Origin: a virus
Virus record (IMG/VR): IMGVR_UViG_3300008117_003191
Span: 1-27,055 of that record
Direction: 5' to 3' (one strand)
DNA: 27,055 bases
Part shown: positions 1,910 through 17,767 of the stretch, one piece after another
Position numbering within the stretch: the first letter of the stretch is position 1
How the letters are laid out: every line of letters begins with the position of its first letter
Made by a program: the position numbers and the translations under genes
The notes under the pieces: model-generated
Told to the model about the DNA's origin: nothing
What the model saw: only the letters and a program-made list of their open reading frames with translations
Database searches by the model: none

Positions 1910-2541
1910 AAAAATCAATAAGAAAAAGTTCAATGTGGGATAGTAAACAAATAAAACTATCTATATTAGTACCAACAAGAGATACTGTACATTCACAATT
2001 CTCATATTGTTTAGCACAATTATATAAGACAACATCAGAACTTGGTATTGAGACATTCTTATTTTATGATTCTAGTACAATTTTATTAAACCAAAGAGAA
2101 AGATTACTAGAACAGGCTAAAAAAGTTAATTCAGATTATGTGTTATGGATTGACAGCGATATGATGTTCCCATCAACCACCGCAGTTCGTCTTTTAGAAC
2201 ACAATAAGGACATTGTTGCGTGTAATTATACTAAACGTACCAAACCACTTAAAACAGTTGCATATACCAATTTAAATGATTGGAATAGTTGGCTTCCTAT
2301 GGTGCCACAGGACGAACTTGTTAAGGTTGAAGGGGTTGGTATGGGATGTATGTTAATGAAATTAGATATCTTCGAAAAAATTCAAAAACCTTATTTTGAA
2401 TTTAGATACAAAGAAGACACCCAAGATTATTTCGGGGAAGATTTTATATTACTCGGTAAATTAAGAGAACAAGGATACGATGTTTATATCGATACTGTTT
2501 TAAGTATGGACATAAAACATTTAGGTATTTATGCCTTTTAA
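1906..2541 (+). CDS. Glycosyltransferase, GT-A fold (GT2-like)
   Basis: A 211-residue putative cytoplasmic glycosyltransferase. The N-terminal strand LSILVPTRDT (18-27) is the nucleotide-sugar fold start. YVLWIDSDMMFP contains the DxD metal and sugar-nucleotide motif (Asp83-Ser-Asp85). GVGMGCMLMK (143-152) and FGEDFILLGKLREQGY (177-191) match the acceptor-side part of phage and bacterial GT-A enzymes, with a later His205. Donor and acceptor cannot be told. It is coupled to the 1466 gene by ATGA and converges on the minus-strand glycan operon, with the two stop codons overlapping in a TTAA. It probably works with that operon. Confidence 0.85.
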   Translation: MKKSIRKSSMWDSKQIKLSILVPTRDTVHSQFSYCLAQLYKTTSELGIETFLFYDSSTILLNQRERLLEQAKKVNSDYVLWIDSDMMFPSTTAVRLLEHNKDIVACNYTKRTKPLKTVAYTNLNDWNSWLPMVPQDELVKVEGVGMGCMLMKLDIFEKIQKPYFEFRYKEDTQDYFGEDFILLGKLREQGYDVYIDTVLSMDIKHLGIYAF

Positions 2542-3641
2542 ATTTTATTTTTTATATTGATTGTAAGATTACCAATTTTGTACTGTCCAATTTCATATTG
2601 ACTTACAACTAATCTTAAAACAAGTAATAATTCCATATCCTTATTTGTCATTGGTTCAATTTCATAAACCATTACATCAACTGAGTTTACGTCCTCAAAC
2701 TTGTTTTTTAAATTATAATTCGTATTAGGTTGTTCTTTGTCGATATAGTCATTAGGTATTTCGTCTAAATCTATTTTATCAAAAAATGGTTCAACATCAA
2801 ATAAAGTTTTTTTGTTATTCGTTGTTAATCCCATAGAAAATTTTTTATAAGAGAAACTTTCTTGATTTTGATAATTTATTTGATTAAATGTGTGAATAGG
2901 AACCCCCCATTTTCTTATAAAATTTCTATTAGAAAAAAATTCAATGTCGTTACGTTTATCTTTCATCTCATCACTAAATCTGGATGTCTGCGAAACAAAA
3001 TGATATACAATTGCGGAATCACATGTTTTTAATCTATATCCTTTTAGTTTCGCACGTATTAAAAAATCATCATCTTCACAAAAACATGGAACAAAAGTAA
3101 AACCATCAAAACCATTTAAATCTTGGAATACCTTTTTGTATGCTGACATAAAGAATACTGCACCATCATATAATTTATCGTTATTGTTCCATTGTTGAAC
3201 ATAACTTTTAAAGTTGTCATCATCGAAATCATCAAATGAACTTCCTAAATCTAATAATACTTTACCAGGTCTTTGGTGTCCTTTGAAAATAGGAGGTTCA
3301 ATTGTGGTGTAAGATAAAATCATATCCTCTTCCAACAATCTATCAAATGATTCTAAAAATCCTTCACCAATTACCATATCATTATGGATCAAAACTAATT
3401 TATCTGTATCAACTAAATCAATACCTGCATTATATGTGTGTGAAAAAGATAACCTATCATCATCATGAAAGAATGATAAATTATCATCTTCTAATGATTC
3501 TAACCATTCTTTAGTCCCATCTGAAGAACCACCACTACTTATTACCAAAGGTGCTGTAGGATATACCTCACGTAATCTTTTATAACATTCTTTTGTTAAA
3601 TCTAATTTATTATAAACTGCTAATACGAAACTTATATTCAT
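2538..3641 (-). CDS. GT2-family glycosyltransferase
   Basis: A 367-residue GT2-type transferase and the last gene of the minus-strand operon. Seen: FVLAVYNKLDLTKEC (5-19) as the first fold element, ISSGGSSDGT (35-43), LVLIHNDMVI with HND at 86-88 in the DxD position, GFTFVPCFCEDDDFLIRAK (180-197) with the acidic catalytic-base region, and YHF at 213-215. This arrangement resembles rhamnosyltransferase-type GT2 enzymes. Residues from about 265 are extra, acidic and Asn-rich and do not match the catalytic domain. A 14-nt gap separates it from the upstream GT. Confidence 0.88.
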   Translation of the reverse strand: MNISFVLAVYNKLDLTKECYKRLREVYPTAPLVISSGGSSDGTKEWLESLEDDNLSFFHDDDRLSFSHTYNAGIDLVDTDKLVLIHNDMVIGEGFLESFDRLLEEDMILSYTTIEPPIFKGHQRPGKVLLDLGSSFDDFDDDNFKSYVQQWNNNDKLYDGAVFFMSAYKKVFQDLNGFDGFTFVPCFCEDDDFLIRAKLKGYRLKTCDSAIVYHFVSQTSRFSDEMKDKRNDIEFFSNRNFIRKWGVPIHTFNQINYQNQESFSYKKFSMGLTTNNKKTLFDVEPFFDKIDLDEIPNDYIDKEQPNTNYNLKNKFEDVNSVDVMVYEIEPMTNKDMELLLVLRLVVSQYEIGQYKIGNLTINIKNKI

Positions 3642-3655
3642 TTTATATTTTAATT

Positions 3656-4234
3656 TTAATTATGTACATATAATGGTTTTGGTATATATCTAACACCCTC
3701 CCTATTGAATTTTCTTAGATAATCTTCAACAAATAACGCATCTGCGGCTTCTTTTGTTATATCTAATTTCAATTGTTGTGCATTTGTTCTTTTTGTCATG
3801 AAGTTACCAATATCAATTGCACCATATCTTGGTTGAGATTTAATATAATAATATTCAAAATTTACCCAATTGTGTATCATATCACAATAAACGAAATGTA
3901 CACCTCCTTTATTTGTGATATCTAAGAAATGGTCAACAAATACTGGCATATAATAATTGTCATCACCACTCATTACAACCCAATCCTCAGTTGCATGTTC
4001 TAGACCATAATTCCTCGGAGTATGACCCCAATCCCTACCTGGATTATCTAACACACTGAATTTAATTCTATCATCATTAAAATAATCTTTTACTTTTTGA
4101 AATCCGTCGTACAAACCATCGGCAACAACATGTATTTTCCACCTATCATCTCTTTGTGAAAAAATGGAACTAATAACTGTCATTAATTGATTTGGACGGT
4201 TATATGTTGGAATTATAAATTCAATTTTACTCAT
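3656..4234 (-). CDS. Short GT2-family glycosyltransferase
   Basis: A 192-residue GT2 enzyme: IEFIIPTYNRPNQLMTVI (4-21) is the typical start, IHVVADG (34-40) the second strand, and WVVMSGDDNYYMP has GDD at 90-92 in the DxD position. DADVEDY-like acidic residues occur near the end (FVEDYLRKF, about 168-176). It is shorter than full GT2 proteins but holds the nucleotide-binding half and an acidic C-terminal motif. It overlaps the end of the epimerase gene by 8 nt, so translation is probably coupled. Substrate unknown. Confidence 0.85.
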   Translation of the reverse strand: MSKIEFIIPTYNRPNQLMTVISSIFSQRDDRWKIHVVADGLYDGFQKVKDYFNDDRIKFSVLDNPGRDWGHTPRNYGLEHATEDWVVMSGDDNYYMPVFVDHFLDITNKGGVHFVYCDMIHNWVNFEYYYIKSQPRYGAIDIGNFMTKRTNAQQLKLDITKEAADALFVEDYLRKFNREGVRYIPKPLYVHN

Positions 4235-5252
4235 GATTAATCATTTTATTTATCCATTCATATGTTTTTGTTAAACCATCAAATAAAGGTTTTGTTGGTT
4301 TCCAATTTAATTTTTGATAAATTAATTTATTGTCACTATTTCTACCTCTAACACCCATTGGACCATCAATGTTTTTTATTTTAATATTTTTATTACTGAT
4401 TTTAATAATATTTTCGGCTAAACTATTAATACTTACCATCTCTTCACTACCTATGTTTACTGGACCGTTAAAGTTTGAATCCATCAATCTTAGCACACCT
4501 TCAATACATTCGTCTATATATAAAAAAGATCTAGTTTGTAGACCATCACCCCAAACTTCAATTTCACCACCATCATTTGTTTCTGAAATTTTTCTACATA
4601 ACGCTGCGGGCGCTTTTTCTTTACCCCCACAATAAGTTCCGAAAGGACCAAATATATTATGAAATCTTGCAATTTTAACATCAAGATTGTAATTATTTCG
4701 GAATGACATGTACAATCTCTCACTAAATAATTTTTCCCAACCGTATTCTGAATCAGGATTTGCAGGATATGCTGAACTTTCTTCACAATTTGGTTTTTGA
4801 TTATCTAATTGATTATGTTCAGGATACATACAAGCGGAAGAACTATAAAATATTTTTTTAACTTTAGATTTAATACAATTATTTAATACGTTTAAATTTA
4901 TCAACGAAGAATTGTACATTATATCGGCATCATTTTCACCGGTAAAAATATAACCCGCACCACCCATATCGGCAGCCAATTGATATACCTCATCAAATAT
5001 TAATTTATCGGTAAATGGTTGAACATATAAATCATATGGTATTGGATATCCACCTCTAGCTTCTAATTTGAATATCGATTCAACAAAACGTTGGTCTCTA
5101 AGATCACCGATTACAAATTCGTCGGAAAAAGTTTCCCAATGTTCTGGATATTTTAAATCCACACCCCTAACCCAATTACCATTTTCTTTTAATTTCTTTA
5201 CTAAGTGTGAACCAATAAATCCACCCGCACCTAATACTAATATTTTTTTCAT
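4227..5252 (-). CDS. GDP-mannose 3,5-epimerase homologue (extended SDR)
   Basis: A 341-residue NAD-dependent sugar-nucleotide epimerase. The Rossmann motif GAGGFIG is at 8-14. Segments match plant and bacterial GDP-D-mannose 3,5-epimerase closely: ADMGGAGYIF (94-103), SSSACMYPE (137-145), RFHNIFGPFGT (196-206), GGKEKAPAALCRK (209-221), WGDGLQTRSFLYIDEC, VNIGSEEMVS and GVRGRNSDN. Cys141, Tyr170, Lys174 and Lys213 fall at the spacing of the known catalytic residues Cys145, Tyr174, Lys178 and Lys217 of the Arabidopsis enzyme. The expected reaction is GDP-mannose to GDP-L-galactose and/or GDP-L-gulose. It is joined to the upstream epimerase by TAATG and overlaps the downstream GT by 8 nt. The family is very likely; exact product specificity needs assay. 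Confidence 0.88.
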   Translation of the reverse strand: MKKILVLGAGGFIGSHLVKKLKENGNWVRGVDLKYPEHWETFSDEFVIGDLRDQRFVESIFKLEARGGYPIPYDLYVQPFTDKLIFDEVYQLAADMGGAGYIFTGENDADIMYNSSLINLNVLNNCIKSKVKKIFYSSSACMYPEHNQLDNQKPNCEESSAYPANPDSEYGWEKLFSERLYMSFRNNYNLDVKIARFHNIFGPFGTYCGGKEKAPAALCRKISETNDGGEIEVWGDGLQTRSFLYIDECIEGVLRLMDSNFNGPVNIGSEEMVSINSLAENIIKISNKNIKIKNIDGPMGVRGRNSDNKLIYQKLNWKPTKPLFDGLTKTYEWINKMINHE

Positions 5253-6250
5253 TACTTTTTAGTTTTCCAAAATGAATATATTCCTTTATCTAATTCATAT
5301 GAGGGCCAAACAAAACGTTCTCTTATTGGTTGTGTTTTAACCCATTCCCACATTTTAGTCAATCCTTCTTTTAAATCTGTTTTGTGTTCGAAGTCCAACA
5401 AATCAACAGACTTTTGCCAAGTCGGTATTGAATGTTTAACTTCATGTCTCCCTTCAAAATACTTTACCGTACCTCCACCAACAACTTCACGAAGTATTTC
5501 ATTTGCCTCATTAATAGAATATTCTTTTATCCCACCTAAGTTGATAATTTGCTTTGACGCTCTACTATCTTGAGAGGCCTTCCATAACGGTTCCAACGAA
5601 TCGTCAATATAACTAAAAGCTCTAGTTTGTGTACCGTCACCAAAAATTGTCATAGGTTCATTGATAGTATGTTGATACATCCATATACCTAATACATTAC
5701 GATATTTATCCCATATGTTTTGATTACGACCATAAACGTTATGTGGTCGAATGATACACCAATCAAGCCCATGATGGTCACCGGCAATCTGAATATCCAT
5801 TTCACAACCATATTTTGCCACACCGTACGGATCAATAGGTTTTTGTTGTTGAGACTCATCAAAAATACCACCATACCCAAAACCATAAACAGCTAATGTT
5901 GATGTGAAAACCAATCTTTTTATATCGTGTCTGATACATTCATTTATAATTCTCGATGTTGCAACTAAGTTATTTTGATAGTTATAACTCCTAATGAACG
6001 GCGATAAACCCTCGGCAGCGTATGCTGCGAAATGGTAAACATAATCAAAATTATGTCTTTCAAAACATTCTTGTATGTTTCCATTCACTAAATTCATTTC
6101 CCATAACTCCACTTTTGGATTTACATTTTCTTTATAACCACCACTCATATCATCGATACCAACTATATTAACATTTGGGTGATTTTCAATAATATAATCT
6201 GCTAATCTTGAACCCAATAAACCGGCGACTCCTGTAATTAAAATTTTCAT
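5252..6250 (-). CDS. NAD-dependent sugar-nucleotide epimerase/dehydratase (GalE-like extended SDR)
   Basis: A 332-residue extended short-chain dehydrogenase. GVAGLLG at 7-13 binds NAD, YHFAAYAAEG (72-81) and VFTSTLAVYG (114-123) match UDP-glucose 4-epimerase-like enzymes, and the catalytic pair is Tyr142-x3-Lys146 with Ser117/Thr118. IRPHNVYGRNQ and FGDGTQTRAFSYIDD are the sugar-binding motifs of the family. The sugar cannot be fixed from sequence; UDP-sugar 4-epimerase is the best guess. The start overlaps the methyltransferase stop as ATGA and its stop overlaps the next epimerase as TAATG, so the pair is probably made in equal amounts. Confidence 0.85.
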   Translation of the reverse strand: MKILITGVAGLLGSRLADYIIENHPNVNIVGIDDMSGGYKENVNPKVELWEMNLVNGNIQECFERHNFDYVYHFAAYAAEGLSPFIRSYNYQNNLVATSRIINECIRHDIKRLVFTSTLAVYGFGYGGIFDESQQQKPIDPYGVAKYGCEMDIQIAGDHHGLDWCIIRPHNVYGRNQNIWDKYRNVLGIWMYQHTINEPMTIFGDGTQTRAFSYIDDSLEPLWKASQDSRASKQIINLGGIKEYSINEANEILREVVGGGTVKYFEGRHEVKHSIPTWQKSVDLLDFEHKTDLKEGLTKMWEWVKTQPIRERFVWPSYELDKGIYSFWKTKK

Positions 6251-6861
6251 ACTTTGTAATAATTTTCTTTTAAATCATTTTCATTTATAAATTTTTTCTT
6301 TTTCATAATAACTTGATACCCGTTATGAACTATTTCTAAATATTTGTGATATCCATGATAAAAGGCGTCCGCACCAGTTTTTACTTGTAAATAAAGTGCT
6401 TGTTCTAAACCACCACCATAATCATCAAAAATCATATAACCATCATCTTTTAAACAATAAAAAGAATTTACAGCATCTTCTAAAACATATTTACACATGT
6501 GATTTCCATCGATATAAACAAAATCTAAAAATTGTTTAGTTTCACCGTTGTGACTAAATTTTTTGAAACTATCAGCGGACTCACCTAAAAAATAAGTTAC
6601 TTTATTTTCATACGGTTTTAGATTATTTTCAATAAAATCATTGGTATTAATATCCATTATATAATGATGTGACCCTTCTTTTTTACAAAAATTTTCTAAT
6701 ATATAGACACTTGAACCACCGTATAATGCACCAATTTCTAAACAAACTCTTGGTTCGTCACCAAAATTCGGTAAAAAATATTCCCAAGCTTCGACGTGAT
6801 TTAAAAAAAAGTATCTTTCACCTTCGGGATATTTAAAATGTTTTGGATATTGAAAACTCAT
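6247..6861 (-). CDS. Class I SAM-dependent methyltransferase (Methyltransf_24-like)
   Basis: A 204-residue methyltransferase. VCLEIGALYGGSSVYIL (39-55) is motif I, YIMD (67-70) is the acidic end of strand 2, and LDFVYIDGNHMCKYVLEDA (112-130) plus YMIFDDYGGG are typical of the Methyltransf_24 sugar and small-molecule O-methyltransferases. Inside a glycan operon, methylation of a sugar hydroxyl is a reasonable inference. It overlaps both neighbours by 4 nt (ATGA). Confidence 0.82.
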   Translation of the reverse strand: MSFQYPKHFKYPEGERYFFLNHVEAWEYFLPNFGDEPRVCLEIGALYGGSSVYILENFCKKEGSHHYIMDINTNDFIENNLKPYENKVTYFLGESADSFKKFSHNGETKQFLDFVYIDGNHMCKYVLEDAVNSFYCLKDDGYMIFDDYGGGLEQALYLQVKTGADAFYHGYHKYLEIVHNGYQVIMKKKKFINENDLKENYYKV

Positions 6862-7478
6862 AAACTATTATAAAAATTATTTTGTTTTTCTTGACGTTCA
6901 ATTGTCTTATGGTGTTGTATACAATATTCTTCATCTACAGGTAATGAAGAGAATCTCTGACCACCTAAAATTCTCTCATGTACTTTACCATACCAACTCA
7001 TACCCTTTCGATATATACGTCCCTGTGTATCGGGAAAATTTACCCAACCCTTATCATTTATTCTCCATCCCCATTTGTTAATATGTTCCTGTGTTATATT
7101 TTTAACGGTATTAATACGAGGTACAAATATTAAATCTACATTTGGATTTAGTTTTAATATTTCATGTAAATTTTTAACCATGTATTCACTAATCATTTCA
7201 TCTGCATCTAATTGATAGATATAATCACCTCTACAATATTCGTTTAATTTATTTTTCCATTCAGCAAAATTACCCTCGAATCCAAACCCTCTCCACGTCT
7301 GAACATTAGGTAATATATTAAAAGGTAATAAGAAATCCAAAATTTCAGGATTACCGTTTTTTTCGTCAAAAAGTACGACTATCTCATCTTCAATCCTTTT
7401 CTTTTCTAATAAAAAAGGAACTAACCTTTTTATTTCATCAATTTCATTACATACTGTAATTGCAAAACTTATTTTCAT
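6858..7478 (-). CDS. GT2-family glycosyltransferase (WaaE-like)
   Basis: A 206-residue GT2 enzyme. FAITVCNEIDEI (5-16) starts the fold, GNFAEWKNKLNEYCRGDYI (69-87) and LDADE (Asp91-Ala-Asp93-Glu94) give the DxD region, and GKVHERI (164-170) matches the xVHE signature of lipopolysaccharide core beta-glucosyltransferase-like (WaaE/KdtX) proteins. These transfer hexose to lipopolysaccharide or similar acceptors. The acceptor here is unknown. It overlaps the neighbours on both sides as ATGA. Confidence 0.86.
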   Translation of the reverse strand: MKISFAITVCNEIDEIKRLVPFLLEKKRIEDEIVVLFDEKNGNPEILDFLLPFNILPNVQTWRGFGFEGNFAEWKNKLNEYCRGDYIYQLDADEMISEYMVKNLHEILKLNPNVDLIFVPRINTVKNITQEHINKWGWRINDKGWVNFPDTQGRIYRKGMSWYGKVHERILGGQRFSSLPVDEEYCIQHHKTIERQEKQNNFYNSL

Positions 7479-7759
7479 AAACCGAGATTTCCGTTTGTAA
7501 TAATTGTTAAATTATTTGTGTTTGGTAAATTTACTAAATTTTCTTCATTTTCTCCTACGATTTCTTCAGATATTTCATTCATCAATCTAATAAATTCTAT
7601 GTTGTTATTTTCCACCATTTCGTTTTCTAATCTTTCACGTAAAGTCCTGATAATCATCTGTATCGCATCGGATTCAATTGTAATTCCATGAAAAAATTTA
7701 AATTCTCTAATCATTTTGTCTTTGTCTGGCAAATATTTTAAAAACTCTACCATTATCAT
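7475..7759 (-). CDS. Small protein of unknown function in the glycan operon
   Basis: Up to 94 residues, acidic and helical in the middle with an Asn/Thr-rich tail. Not recognised. As drawn it overlaps the upstream gene by 53 nt; an internal ATG at 7714 (MIREFKFFHG) would reduce the overlap to 8 nt (ATGATTAG), similar to other junctions here, and is equally likely to be the true start. The stop overlaps the GT start as ATGA. The frame is kept despite the overlaps, supporting a real gene. Confidence 0.6.
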   Translation of the reverse strand: MIMVEFLKYLPDKDKMIREFKFFHGITIESDAIQMIIRTLRERLENEMVENNNIEFIRLMNEISEEIVGENEENLVNLPNTNNLTIITNGNLGL

Positions 7760-8009
7760 TAAATATCATATTTGAATTTGCCGTCGGACTTATATGTATT
7801 GTACAGTCATTAGGACCATTCGCAAAAACAACTGGACTCTCATCGTCAAACTGAAAACAAAATTCTACATCTTGAATTCTTTGATTATTCATGTAAAAAA
7901 TTCTACCGTTATTATTTGTCAAATTGAAACTATCAGTCATAGTTTCCCAATAATCATTTAAATTAATGACTGCGGTATTTTCTTTTTGATTAAAAAATTT
8001 GAAATCCAT
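7707..8009 (-). CDS. Small beta-rich protein of unknown function
   Basis: A 100-residue protein with alternating polar and hydrophobic residues (AVINLNDYW, VEFCFQFDD, CTIHISPT) that suggest beta-sheet. No membrane segment or catalytic motif. Not recognised. The start codon follows directly on the stop of the upstream methyltransferase gene (TAA-ATG), and its end overlaps the next small gene, so it belongs to the same transcript. It may be a small partner or a virion protein. Confidence 0.65.
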   Translation of the reverse strand: MDFKFFNQKENTAVINLNDYWETMTDSFNLTNNNGRIFYMNNQRIQDVEFCFQFDDESPVVFANGPNDCTIHISPTANSNMIFNDNGRVFKIFARQRQND

Positions 8010-8546
8010 TTACGGTTTTTTTATAATTAAAAGTTTATTATCACACTCTAATTTGAATTCTAAATAACTATTTTTGAATTGTTCGATTGTTAAATGACCA
8101 TCATGTGCCTGTAAATCTTCAATTAGATAGTACCCACCTGATTTCAGGTGTTGATATAAAGTATTAAATGTAATCATGTGATGTTCATGATAATGACTAC
8201 CATCATCAATTATTACATCATATTCACCACCAAATTTTAAAATGGCATTATTTAAATCATCCACATTTCCTTGGTCACCTTGAAATGTGTGTATTTTATT
8301 ATTGTCAAATCTCGAACAATCTTTTATATCGAAACCAACAAAAAATAAATCTTCAAAGTATTGGTCCCATAAATGAACGGAAGAGTTTAAATATCTAGGG
8401 TCATTTATTCCAATTTCAAACATTCTCAAATGTTTATTTTTGTACTCATCAAACAAAGTTTCATATATCAAAGTGTATGAATGTTTTTCAAAATGTTCAG
8501 TACCTTTATCTATACCTAATTTGTTTGCAATTTCTGTTAATGTCAT
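8010..8546 (-). CDS. Class I SAM methyltransferase of the MycE/demethylmacrocin type
   Basis: A 178-residue methyltransferase. LGIDKGTEHFEKHSYTLIYE (10-29) is the typical leader of the sugar O-methyltransferases related to MycE and TylE, FEIGINDPRYLNSS (43-56) is motif I, FVGFDIKD (69-76) ends strand 2, GDQG (90-93), DVIIDDGSHYHEHHMITF (110-127) and YYLIEDL (139-145) complete the fold and metal-binding region. In relatives it methylates sugar hydroxyls. It ends soon after motif VI and is shorter than most relatives. The gap to the upstream gene is 3 nt. Confidence 0.85.
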   Translation of the reverse strand: MTLTEIANKLGIDKGTEHFEKHSYTLIYETLFDEYKNKHLRMFEIGINDPRYLNSSVHLWDQYFEDLFFVGFDIKDCSRFDNNKIHTFQGDQGNVDDLNNAILKFGGEYDVIIDDGSHYHEHHMITFNTLYQHLKSGGYYLIEDLQAHDGHLTIEQFKNSYLEFKLECDNKLLIIKKP

Positions 8547-8549
8547 AAT

Positions 8550-9800
8550 TTATAATTTAAATAAACTTGGTAAAACTAAATTCGTATATGTTGGAATTAC
8601 CATTCTTTTTTGTATAATTGTTTTGAATTTTTTTGTCATTTCATCCAATGAGAAATTGTTTTTATTTTTTTCTTTAAGTGGTGTTGATTTTAACAACATT
8701 TCATCATATTCGTTTTTTACTAATTTCATTGCACCAACAACTTCTCCATAATTAGCAGTGAACCATTTTGACCCTTTGATTATGAATGTGTCCTGTGCAC
8801 TTTCATCCACATCTGTCAATTTTCCACCTAGTAGAATTGAATTTTCTAATGTTAAGAAATCCTTATGTCCCGACCAATTTGATGCAATAACCGGTTTACC
8901 TGTCATGGTAAATTCTAATAATGGTCTACCGAATCCTTCCCCTTTAGTTATACTAATCATTGATTTAATTTTCGGATGATTATATAAATCGTTCATTTCA
9001 CTATTTGTTAATTCACCGAATAAAAGATAAATCGAAGGTGGGGTTTTAATATCACCAACTAACTCAGTTATTCTTTTTCTAAAATTTTCTCTTTCTAAAA
9101 CGGAAAAATTTGCAGATGATGTTTTTAAAACTAATGCCGGTTTTTCTTTCTCATCTTTAAATGCTTCAACGAAACATTTAATTAACATACCCACATCTTT
9201 TCTATCTTGACCTAAATTACCTTTTAACCAATGACCAACAAATAAAAACGCGAAATCTTCTTTTATATCTAATTGAAAATTATCATTAATACTATCATTA
9301 TAAATTGACAAATCAACACCTTCGAATAAAACCTCAATTGGTTTTTCAATTTTATGTTGTTTAATGATTGTATTTGTTTTATTATCAATTTCATTATAGA
9401 CTGAACTTAAAAGAACATCTTTTGAGAATGTGGAAGTTGTAATAATTAAATCCATTTTATTACATCCGTCAATCCAATCTTTTGGTGCAATAGTTGTTTC
9501 AATTCCTGCGGTTATACCTATATTCAATTTACCAAAACGTTGGAATTCATTTGGTACTGTAACTTGAATGTAAACATCAGGTAATCCTTGAAATTCATTC
9601 ACAATATTACTTTCAATCCATTTATGATATAAATTATCACTCTCTAATGCAGTTAATGGTGTACTTCCCCACATACAACTATCGATACGTATGTCGAAAA
9701 TATCCATTTTATAAAGTGATTCTAATAAATCTCTCGAATGGGCACCATACCCACTTCTACTTTTAACTGGTCCTCTAAATAATAAAGTTGGTTTTATCAT
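8550..9800 (-). CDS. GT4-family (GT-B) glycosyltransferase
   Basis: A 416-residue GT-B enzyme. N-terminal LLFRGPVKSRSGYGAHSRD (6-24) includes the Gly-rich loop, and FLFVGHWLKGNLGQDRKD (185-202) starts the C-terminal donor domain. ITKGEGFGRPLLEF (284-297) has the EX7E motif (Glu288 and Glu296), and TGKPVIASNWSGHKDF follows. These are GT4 retaining-transferase signatures that use nucleotide sugars. It overlaps the upstream GT4 gene by ATGA and lies 3 nt from the downstream methyltransferase gene. Substrate unknown. Confidence 0.88.
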   Translation of the reverse strand: MIKPTLLFRGPVKSRSGYGAHSRDLLESLYKMDIFDIRIDSCMWGSTPLTALESDNLYHKWIESNIVNEFQGLPDVYIQVTVPNEFQRFGKLNIGITAGIETTIAPKDWIDGCNKMDLIITTSTFSKDVLLSSVYNEIDNKTNTIIKQHKIEKPIEVLFEGVDLSIYNDSINDNFQLDIKEDFAFLFVGHWLKGNLGQDRKDVGMLIKCFVEAFKDEKEKPALVLKTSSANFSVLERENFRKRITELVGDIKTPPSIYLLFGELTNSEMNDLYNHPKIKSMISITKGEGFGRPLLEFTMTGKPVIASNWSGHKDFLTLENSILLGGKLTDVDESAQDTFIIKGSKWFTANYGEVVGAMKLVKNEYDEMLLKSTPLKEKNKNNFSLDEMTKKFKTIIQKRMVIPTYTNLVLPSLFKL

Positions 9801-11158
9801 ACTATTTTATATAAATCATATTTTTTTCTTGGTTTGAAGTTTTTAATTGCTGTTTCAATCCCCTCAACCATTTTATCACACATAATTTTTGACGACAAAT
9901 TTTTAATTGCCCACTCTCTACCTTCTAATCCTCTTTTCTTACGTTCTTTCTTTGACCATTTATAAACTTTCATAATTGCATCTGCAACTTCATTATCATT
10001 TACTCGATCATCAAAGATGTAAGGTGTTGCAACTGAACCATTTATATTGATTGATGATGGCCACACAGGTACAACCCAAGAACCATGTGGTTCTGAACCG
10101 TATTTTTCTTTATCGTGTAGTGTCCCAATTTTTATGTAATCTTCATCTGTATACTTAAATCCACATTGATCTTGTAAACCACCTGTTACATTAACAATAA
10201 TTGGTGTACCGGCCATAACACTTTCGGCGGTGGTTAAACCAAAACCTTCATTATTAGCAATATTAATTGTACAGTCAACTATATTATACAATTCATTTAA
10301 TTTGTCTTGTTCTACTTTTGTGTTCAACAACTTGACATCATAATCAGGACATATAGCATCTTTTACCGCATACAAATCAGTTCCATTAACATCGACCGGT
10401 GTTGTATGCATTAGTAATAAACATTTGTCAGCCTTTTCTTTTGGTAATTTATCACAAAATAATTTATATGAATAAATTACATCGGATGGTTGTTTTCTTC
10501 TTATGTTTCTGTTGTTATAAAACAATATGAAATCATATTTTTTGTCACCATAAACCAACGATTTCATTTCGTCAGAAACTTTATCCAACGGTTTGAAAAC
10601 ATTTTCATTTATACCGTGTGGAACATAACTTATTTGCCAATCCTCTAATGGTTTCCAAGTTGATTGAGTAGTCATTTTACCAACTCTATTAACAATACCA
10701 TAAGTTTGTTTAGAAATACAACCTAACCAATCACAACATTCATAATAATTTCTATTATACATAGGGTCAGGTAAGTTGTCCCATATATGATAATATAATA
10801 TAGGTGTGGTTTGTCTTATTTCATGTTCATTTTCATATAACCAAACCCAATAGTGTGGATCTGTAAAATGTAATATAGCATCAAACTTCTCCGCGGATAA
10901 GATTTTTCTAATAGTACCTATGTTACCATAACCATCAAAAGGTATAACTTTAACATCGGCATGTGGAACACCAGTTTTATTTCTCACATCTTCACTTACA
11001 TCAATAATTTTTCCTTTATCAGGGTGATTCACACCCGCACCAACCTGTAACCAACTGTATTTATCGACGGTTCCTAAAACAAATTCTTTTGACATAGTAC
11101 CTATACCAGATGTTAAACGTAAGTCATCTGATAATAATAATATTTTTCTTTTTACCAT
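9797..11158 (-). CDS. GT4-family (GT-B) glycosyltransferase, second copy
   Basis: A 453-residue GT-B enzyme from the ATG at 11158. A longer frame exists but opens with GTG at 11176 inside the upstream gene, so ATG is preferred; it follows the upstream stop by one base. Seen (ATG numbering): KRKILLLSDDLRLTSGIGT near the N-terminus, YHIWDNLPDP (123-132), YVPHGINENVF (178-188), YNNRNIRRKQP (214-224) for phosphate binding and NEGFGLTTAES with the EX7E pair Glu304 and Glu312. It is related to, but not a recent duplicate of, the next gene. ATGA overlap with that gene implies co-expression. Confidence 0.88.
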   Translation of the reverse strand: MVKRKILLLSDDLRLTSGIGTMSKEFVLGTVDKYSWLQVGAGVNHPDKGKIIDVSEDVRNKTGVPHADVKVIPFDGYGNIGTIRKILSAEKFDAILHFTDPHYWVWLYENEHEIRQTTPILYYHIWDNLPDPMYNRNYYECCDWLGCISKQTYGIVNRVGKMTTQSTWKPLEDWQISYVPHGINENVFKPLDKVSDEMKSLVYGDKKYDFILFYNNRNIRRKQPSDVIYSYKLFCDKLPKEKADKCLLLMHTTPVDVNGTDLYAVKDAICPDYDVKLLNTKVEQDKLNELYNIVDCTINIANNEGFGLTTAESVMAGTPIIVNVTGGLQDQCGFKYTDEDYIKIGTLHDKEKYGSEPHGSWVVPVWPSSININGSVATPYIFDDRVNDNEVADAIMKVYKWSKKERKKRGLEGREWAIKNLSSKIMCDKMVEGIETAIKNFKPRKKYDLYKIV

Positions 11159-11159
11159 T

Positions 11160-11357
11160 TTAATACTTTGAACCACTTACCGCTAAATCGGTATAGTTAT
11201 TAATCCTTTCACGGAAGGATTCATCCTTGATATATAAATCTAATGACCTATTAACTAATTTTTGTAAATTAATATTACCATCAATAGCATTTATTTTAAA
11301 TTTTTTATAAACATCACCCAATATATGGACACTTGTTAATTTTTTATCTACTTTCAT
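11160..11357 (-). CDS. Ribbon-helix-helix DNA-binding protein heading the glycan operon
   Basis: A 65-residue protein with the ribbon-helix-helix layout: strand LTSVHIL (7-13), helix 1 GDVYKKFKINAIDGN (14-28), turn at about 28-30 and helix 2 NLQKLVNRSLDLYIKD (30-45), then a polar tail. Proteins of this fold bind palindromic operators as dimers through the N-terminal strand, as in Arc, Mnt and CopG. It is the first gene of the operon, and two 22-bp near-palindromes lie 42 and 70 nt upstream of its start, so autoregulation of the operon is likely. The fold call rests on pattern, not on a search. Confidence 0.7.
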   Translation of the reverse strand: MKVDKKLTSVHILGDVYKKFKINAIDGNINLQKLVNRSLDLYIKDESFRERINNYTDLAVSGSKY

Positions 11358-11398
11358 ATTTTATTATATATATTTTTATATATTAATTCTCTAAAAAA

Positions 11399-11448
11399 AT
11401 ATCGTGAATATTAACGATATTTTTAATTATCGAGCATATAAACGATAT
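11399..11448. promoter_or_regulatory. Two 22-bp near-palindromic operator copies
   Basis: Copy 1 (11399-11420) has arms ATATCGT and ACGATAT around G-AATATT-A and is symmetric except for one base pair. Copy 2 (11427-11448) matches copy 1 at 18 of 22 positions and keeps the ACGATAT half. The copies are in direct order, 28 bp apart. They lie between the ribbon-helix-helix gene start and the stop codon of the 55-aa gene, which copy 2 touches. Regulatory function is inferred from the arrangement. Confidence 0.65.
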
Positions 11449-11615
11449 TAGGAATTAATTTGATTTAACCTAGCAATGATTTCATCAACAGTTTTTTGTT
11501 GTTCTTCTGTTAAGGTTAAATTTGCATCTTGTTGTGTTACTTCTTCAGTATTAACCGTAACTTCGGTTGGTTGTTCTACTGTTTTAGTTTTGTTCTTTTT
11601 ACATCCGCAACCCAT
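11448..11615 (-). CDS. 55-residue GCGC-start small protein
   Basis: A short gene encoding MGCGCKKNKTKTVEQ, followed by a Thr/Val/Glu/Gln-rich linker and a helical C-terminus (LTEEQQKTVDEIIARLNQI at about 35-53). The N-terminal CxC followed by lysines could bind a metal or be oxidised; there is no hydrophobic signal segment, so it is not a lipoprotein. Good codon structure and the clear N-terminus support a real gene. I recall similar short proteins in other environmental phages but cannot name a family. The stop codon abuts the second operator copy. Confidence 0.72.
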   Translation of the reverse strand: MGCGCKKNKTKTVEQPTEVTVNTEEVTQQDANLTLTEEQQKTVDEIIARLNQINS

Positions 11616-14149: not shown

Positions 14150-14181
14150 AAACCCCGATAACTTATTTGTTATCAGGGTTT
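14150..14181. terminator. Bidirectional terminator between thyA and a minus-strand gene
   Basis: Arms AAACCCCGATAAC (14150-14162) and GTTATCAGGGTTT (14169-14181) form a 13-bp stem with one mismatch and a 6-nt loop TTATTT. A-runs on one side and T-rich arm ends allow termination on both strands, as expected between the convergent thyA and 44-aa genes. Confidence 0.85.
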
Positions 14182-16336: not shown

Positions 16337-16351
16337 CTACACAATTTCCTT

Positions 16352-16380
16352 AAATCCATATATCTTTTATATATGGATTT
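16352..16380 (+). promoter_or_regulatory. Perfect 12-bp inverted repeat covering a start codon
   Basis: AAATCCATATAT (16352-16363), a 5-nt loop CTTTT and ATATATGGATTT (16369-16380) form a perfect hairpin whose right arm includes the ATG at 16373-16375. It fills the gap between the two PcfJ-like genes. In a read-through mRNA the start would be hidden; the same structure could act as a dyad operator. Confidence 0.7.
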
Positions 16381-17767
16381 ATTGTTTGAATATACACAAG
16401 AAAAAACGGATAGAAAACATAAGACATTAAATGTTTGTAATTTTATTCTTTCACGTAATAGTGAAATGATTGAATATTCAAGTTATTTTAATTTTGATTA
16501 TAATAGGTTTGGTACAAAACAAAAAATTACATTCCAACATTCATTTATTGTAAATTTAACAAATGGTGATATTGACATTAGTTATAAAATTATTAACAAT
16601 GATTTGATAGAAGATAAGTTATTTAGAAATACATTTAAACATAAGAAAAATGATTTTAAAATGTTATTTGACTTGTCTGAAAACGGTTTTGAAAGAGGTG
16701 AAAAAAGATATAATTATTGGGGTGTTAAATTCAAAAGAGCAAAAGATGAATTATTAGTTATTTTTTATAATCAAATAAAAGATTATTTCAAAAACGATTT
16801 CATAAGTCATAAACTACAAAAAGGTGAATACCACATAAATCATCTATATGATATGTTGGTAGATTTACATTTAGAATTGAAAGGTATTAAAGGACACGAC
16901 GGAATCTATTTTGATATTCAACACGAATATCCAAAGAAAAAATGGTTAGAAAAAAACGAATATAAGTTTTTACCTGCGGTACTTGATTCTTATAATATCA
17001 AATCAAAATATCTTATTGGTGAATTAAATAAACATACGGACAAACCGGTTATGATTTCATCTTTAAATTATCTATGTAAACTTTTTGGTTCAAACTACAT
17101 AGATTATTTGAGACAAATAAAATGGGAACACCATTGTTATGATGCAACACCGAATAAAAAAACTCATGAATTAAAAAATGAATCAGAAAAAAATTCTTTA
17201 GTGAGTGTTATTAACAAATGGGAAAAGGACACATTAAAAAGTGATTCGTTAATTTACATGTTGAACAAACTTTTTACAATAAGAGAGGTGTTAGAACAAA
17301 AAGGTTTAAATCTAAAATTCAGGGCTAAGAATGATCATGAATTTGAAAATCTAATGGAAATTTGGTCGGGGTTCAAAATACATTTTACAAGAGGATATAA
17401 AGTAAAATATCTTTTACCTAACAATGTAATTAATGATTTGGAAGAAGAATTTAAATTGGGTGATATGAATTTTAAACCTAAATTAATATTATCAGAAGAA
17501 GATTTCAGAATCGAGGGATATACAATGAAAAATTGTATGTCCAAACAATTTCCTCATGGTGCGATTTATATTTTTGTTTCATTACAACACAAAAGAAAGA
17601 AAATCAATTTACAATATAGGAAGGGACAGTTAGTACAATCTTATGGAAAGGCAAATACAGTGGTTCCGAAATTATTTGAAGAGGCAATATGTTATCTTAC
17701 TAACAAGTTTAAAAAATACTCCAACTTAGAATGGAGGAAAGAAAAATACGATTTCATAACTCATTGA
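16373..17767 (+). CDS. PcfJ-like protein, paralogue 2
   Basis: A 464-residue protein, shorter than its upstream paralogue mainly at the N-terminus. The C-terminal PcfJ-like pattern is FRIEGYTMKNCMSKQF with Cys388, then IYIFVSLQHKRKKINLQYRK, GQLVQSYGKANTVVP and FEEAICYL. The middle segment WLEKNEYKFLPAVLDSYNI and SLNYLCKLFGSNYIDYLRQI aligns with the first copy. The conserved His-Cys of the first copy is Asn-Cys here, so the two may have diverged in role. Translation start is inside a perfect hairpin. Confidence 0.72.
   Translation: MDLLFEYTQEKTDRKHKTLNVCNFILSRNSEMIEYSSYFNFDYNRFGTKQKITFQHSFIVNLTNGDIDISYKIINNDLIEDKLFRNTFKHKKNDFKMLFDLSENGFERGEKRYNYWGVKFKRAKDELLVIFYNQIKDYFKNDFISHKLQKGEYHINHLYDMLVDLHLELKGIKGHDGIYFDIQHEYPKKKWLEKNEYKFLPAVLDSYNIKSKYLIGELNKHTDKPVMISSLNYLCKLFGSNYIDYLRQIKWEHHCYDATPNKKTHELKNESEKNSLVSVINKWEKDTLKSDSLIYMLNKLFTIREVLEQKGLNLKFRAKNDHEFENLMEIWSGFKIHFTRGYKVKYLLPNNVINDLEEEFKLGDMNFKPKLILSEEDFRIEGYTMKNCMSKQFPHGAIYIFVSLQHKRKKINLQYRKGQLVQSYGKANTVVPKLFEEAICYLTNKFKKYSNLEWRKEKYDFITH

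Follow-up and report, generated by a model that had tools for sequence, protein, structure and literature searches.

The DNA analysed here, referred to as the window, comprises an entire virus record (27,055 bases). A close-packed glycan operon on its minus strand begins with a small gene, upstream of which lie several symmetric sequence elements. The features of this locus are as follows.

2538-9800, minus strand: remainder of the operon, with glycosyltransferases, methyltransferases, two NDP-sugar epimerases and small ORFs, close-packed on the same strand
9797-11158, minus strand: family-4-type glycosyltransferase, the first enzyme of the operon (Pfam Glycos_transf_1, 2.9e-7)
11160-11357, minus strand: gene for a ribbon-helix-helix (RHH)-like protein of 65 aa (ORF, relatives and weak Arc-like profile matches)
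11363-11384, minus strand: TATATA dyad AATATATAAAAATATATATAAT (core 11365-11382), a candidate operator that would overlap the promoter (conservation and PWM)
11393-11424, minus strand: intrinsic-terminator-like hairpin with T tract, containing the near-palindrome at 11399-11420 (fold energy and covarying arms in relatives)
11427-11448, minus strand: second, gene-distal near-palindrome, offset by 28 bp from the proximal copy and beginning at the stop codon of the 55-aa gene
11448-11615, minus strand: 55-aa gene (MGCGCKKNK...), the upstream neighbour of the 65-aa gene, in the same direction

The 65-aa gene and its operon

The stop codon of the 65-aa ORF is 1 bp away from the glycosyltransferase gene, and a homologue of this first glycosyltransferase lies downstream of the 65-aa gene in all 81 loci of a first set, including that of the cultured Flavobacterium phage immuto, as well as in all 149 of the further loci with enough sequence. 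The proposal of a first-pass annotation of this DNA that a small, putatively DNA-binding gene begins a glycan operon therefore holds for the window and for every testable relative, with the qualification that the profile matches behind the DNA-binding assignment are weak. In Microcystis phage Mel-JY01, a homologue of the glycosyltransferase is present with no annotated RHH gene before it. The 55-aa MGCGCKKNK... protein encoded on the other side has a Cys-rich start, and in relatives its gene often sits next to the RHH gene on the upstream side.

The protein belongs to a family with at least 586 related stretches in IMG/VR, in which the segments LQKLVNRS and KLTSV are near-invariant; the homologue in immuto, annotated as 'hypothetical protein', is 37% identical to the window protein. 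Collinear over residues 14-47, the window protein matches phrog_3180, 'Arc-like repressor', with an E value of 0.024, and the best value among family members is 5.1e-7. A Pfam search of the window protein gave no RHH match above the cut-off; across the family, 8 of 72 members match Pfam RHH_10 weakly (best E 0.0084), and a CopG-family PDB chain is also a weak match (E 0.2). Comparison by hhalign with one Arc and one CopG sequence, both approximate, gave no alignment. AlphaFold2, run on the monomer with 30 and with 72 sequences, places helices at residues 14-26 and 31-44, where the RHH class expects them; the N-terminal segment has a pLDDT below 50, with low confidence in both runs, and the strand is absent from the model. 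In the RHH class, this N-terminal strand pairs only in the dimer. A fold search of the monomer model against the PDB returned zero matches. Taken on its weak profile matches, the 65-aa protein is probably a member of the ribbon-helix-helix (Arc/CopG-like) class.

The TATATA dyad

A T tract and the start codon of the 65-aa gene are separated by 35 bp, and within this interval, 6-27 bases upstream of the ATG and downstream of the hairpin, lies a TATATA dyad which went unmentioned in the first-pass annotation. Of 80 loci, 65 carry TATATA-N2-6-TATATA upstream of the 65-aa gene, and only 2 copies lie elsewhere in 587 kb; a first-order Markov model of the window leads to an expectation of 0.05 such dyads per 27 kb. 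Among the 18 distinct dyads with a 4-8 gap that 16 large records contain, 13 stand directly upstream of the gene. A further 160 loci, gathered using two distant family members as queries, carry TATATA-N2-8-TATATA no more than 80 bp upstream in 155 cases, with 13 copies elsewhere in 722 kb. Of 153 distinct regions upstream of the gene, 149 contain two or more TATATA boxes. To control for the AT-richness of intergenic sequence, the last 70 nt of each gene-upstream region in five genomes were searched, and two or more boxes were present in 5 of 237, four of these five belonging to the 65-aa gene itself. The spacing of the boxes varies (2, 4, 6, 8 or 10), and the marine group mostly has three boxes, two bases apart.

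A leave-one-out PWM of the dyad ranks the site before the 65-aa gene first in five genomes. The scores of this site and of the next non-overlapping one are 26.2 and 8.9 in the window, 23.8 and 13.1 in genome G008, 27.0 and 17.5 in G010, and 21.7 and 11.6 in G005; in immuto, the first place is a narrow one (13.2 vs 11.8). On these comparisons, the conserved, gene-specific cis element upstream of the 65-aa gene is the TATATA dyad, and it is a better candidate operator than the ATATCGT palindromes considered below. Extra copies of the dyad in relatives were also considered as a regulon, an idea that was set aside: the places fetched lie in varied contexts, with no visible common target.

The dyad might alternatively be a special promoter element of the operon, serving a host or phage sigma factor, with the small protein acting elsewhere, a reading that we regard as rather unlikely. 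It does sit where the promoter must be if the hairpin terminates, and in four relatives (L005, L009, L016 and L018) the sequence of the proximal box is TATATTTG, which matches TAnnTTTG, the -7 promoter element of Bacteroidetes; in G005 and G008, words of this type are also enriched in the regions that precede other genes. However, if this were a general promoter, it would be expected in front of other genes as well, whereas the paired boxes are almost unique to the 65-aa gene, and the symmetry of the boxes and their triplication in most of the marine group also speak against this alternative. A generic sigma-70 scan found no excess over shuffles.

The enriched words in the gene-upstream regions of G005 and G008 include GTATATTTG, TACCTTTGTA and TTTGGAATAT. 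Their enrichment suggests Bacteroidetes-type promoters, and hence a Bacteroidetes host.

The ATATCGT near-palindromes and the proximal hairpin

The feature on which the first-pass annotation had centred is a pair of 22-bp near-palindromes upstream of the 65-aa gene, at 11399-11420 (ATATCGTGAATATTAACGATAT) and 11427-11448 (TTATCGAGCATATAAACGATAT), and its description is confirmed: the copies are identical at 18 of 22 bases and their starts are 28 bp apart. The pattern ATATCGT-N8-ACGATAT occurs once exactly in the window, the second copy being 2 mismatches off; when up to 3 mismatches are allowed, the count is 6 where 2.2 are expected, 2 of 100 shuffles also reach 6, and the pair exceeds chance. 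The proximal palindrome is longer than first described, extending over 11395-11424 with 15+15 nt that are 93% complementary, and the earlier description omitted the TTTTTTT (11393-11399) that follows the gene-proximal copy on the transcribed strand.

Read on that minus strand, the proximal copy forms a hairpin, AAAAATATCGT-TAATATTC-ACGATATTTTTTT, which runs into the T tract, is placed after the stop codon of the same-direction 55-aa gene and folds with -8.7 kcal/mol (z -4.7). A T-tailed hairpin stands at the same place in 40 distinct relatives, its stem ending 31-44 nt upstream of the start codon, and these hairpins comprise 25 distinct inner arm pairs (ATCGTC/GACGAT, ATCGGAC/GTCCGAT, ACGGGTA/TGCCCGT, TTCACC/GGTGAA, ACGGAAA/TTTCCGT and others) with loops of 3-13 nt. 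The arms do not follow protein identity: they differ in L020 (83% identity; a locus of genome G005) and L022 (82%), and L040 (68%) keeps ATCGTC. Downstream of a gene, the transcribed strand thus carries a stable hairpin with a T tract behind it, and across the 40 distinct sequences the pairing rather than the sequence is kept; persistence of pairing and T tract while the sequence changes is the pattern of terminators and not of operators. The best reading of the proximal ATATCGT palindrome is therefore a putative intrinsic terminator of the 55-aa gene transcript.

Scans for T-tailed hairpins found 13 in G005 (0-1 in shuffles), 11 in G008 (0-2) and 49 in G010 (5-6), most of them located behind stop codons on the same strand. 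Applied to the window, the scan gave 4 against 0-3 in shuffles, and the proximal hairpin was not among them because its A-rich arm pairs with part of the T tract and the tail rule is stricter; a stock terminator scan also missed it, because that scan needs three G-C pairs and the window stem has two.

The first-pass annotation had interpreted the palindromes as operators to which RHH dimers bind cooperatively, repressing the operon, and this interpretation now appears improbable. The pair is real and near-palindromic, the 28-bp tandem is retained in 11 of 40 distinct relatives (with proteins approximately 68 to 86% identical to that of the window), and a leave-one-out palindrome PWM gives the site its top rank in both the window and G008. 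The same PWM, however, places it at about rank 496 in G005 and at 550 in G010, the T tract is always on the transcribed strand, and the arms take 25 forms, being replaced even at 82-83% protein identity, yet the protein is nearly invariant. Moreover, more distant groups retain the 65-aa gene, the dyad and the operon with no such hairpin. Arm replacement, the T tract and the failure of the PWM in G005 and G010 led us to reject the palindromes as operators, so that what survives of the original interpretation is the small RHH-like gene heading a glycan operon.

The relatives that keep the tandem include L011, L012, L016, L025, L028, L032, L040 and L042, in which the spacing is exactly 28 bp while the remainder diverges; in L028, ATATCA replaces ATATCG in both copies. 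The distal palindrome may lengthen the terminator stem, and termination alone does not fully explain why the distal copy is retained at exactly 28 bp. A switchable RNA element, in which the two palindromes would form either two hairpins or one four-arm hairpin and act as an attenuator or reinforced terminator, is very improbable: the stretch 11380-11460 has a long four-arm fold (-20 kcal/mol, z -5.6) and the tandem is retained in 11 of 40 relatives, but no antiterminated form is evident, because one T tract is the end point of either pairing, the distal copy is absent from 29 of 40 relatives, and an Rfam search of the window gave zero matches.

Other hairpins of this kind were noted. A strong terminator-like hairpin with a T tail, AAACCCTGATAAC-AAATAA-GTTATCGGGGTTT, lies at 14150-14181 of the window (minus strand). 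Several genomes of the phage group share a recurrent hairpin followed by T-rich sequence, usually soon after a stop codon:

Window 16351-16381 (plus strand), G005 48226-48256, G008 32256-32288 and G010 69022-69048: recurrent AATCCATATATA-loop-TATATATGGATT hairpin

Putative control of the operon and comparison with known systems

Taken together, the reading that we favour, and hold to be fairly probable, is that the RHH protein is an autorepressor of its own glycan operon which acts at the TATATA dyad, the ATATCGT palindrome being an insulating terminator. The product of the 65-aa gene would be a small, putatively dimeric RHH repressor, and the operator to which it is predicted to bind is most likely the dyad. 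Should the hairpin act as a terminator, the only place for the operon promoter would be the 35-bp interval containing the dyad, and a protein bound there would cover it, because no more room than this exists between T tract and ATG; a dimer, or an array of dimers on the boxes, would block the promoter and so autorepress the operon. The hairpin, for its part, would end the 55-aa gene transcript and insulate the operon from upstream transcription, so that expression of the operon would depend on the dyad-controlled promoter. Both the position of this promoter and repression rather than activation are what we infer, and autorepression is the likeliest logic for this putative regulator. The autorepressor model is weakest where the spacing of the boxes is concerned, since a single dimer-dimer operator does not usually vary in this way; in addition, conservation at the same place would also be expected of an AT-rich promoter element.

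Several known systems resemble this arrangement. Arc-type phage repressors (PHROG 3180, with P22 Arc as the prototype) are similar in size, in the expected helix positions and in the collinear match over residues 14-47, and they are likewise phage-borne with a symmetric site beside their own gene. Arc is found in the context of the immunity or ant region, whereas the window gene heads a glycan-synthesis operon and its candidate site consists of TATATA boxes with a variable gap. The CopG/omega-type autorepressors, which bind repeated half-sites beside their own promoter, offer the likely logic, namely a small protein encoded first in its own operon and repeated short boxes overlapping the promoter; unlike them, the window protein has no plasmid copy-control role. 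The hairpin resembles intrinsic (rho-independent) terminators in running into a T tract just past a stop codon and in its covarying arms, and differs from them in the two G-C pairs of the window stem and in the near-copy 28 bp upstream in some relatives.

The logic of RHH autorepressors is known, while its pairing with glycan operons and TATATA boxes is apparently undescribed among the papers open to searching, none of which was found to deal with the 65-aa regulator. Whether an RHH protein and a flexibly spaced array of TATATA boxes form a widespread, fixed leader of glycan operons in a large environmental phage group that includes Immutovirus, providing dedicated feedback control of phage-encoded glycosylation, is to our mind evenly balanced. 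If so, a control element would be named for a phage glycan operon that hundreds of environmental viral contigs share with a cultured Flavobacterium phage, and a precise DNA site would be supplied for testing. The locus also illustrates how paired palindromes next to a repressor gene can prove to be a terminator, since it was the comparison of relatives, and not symmetry alone, that pointed to the candidate operator.

The pair of RHH and glycosyltransferase genes, with TATATA-like boxes, was also observed on two contigs, L292 and L294, from bins labelled as Flavobacteriales and Euryarchaeota MAGs; both are probably phage contigs inside MAG bins.
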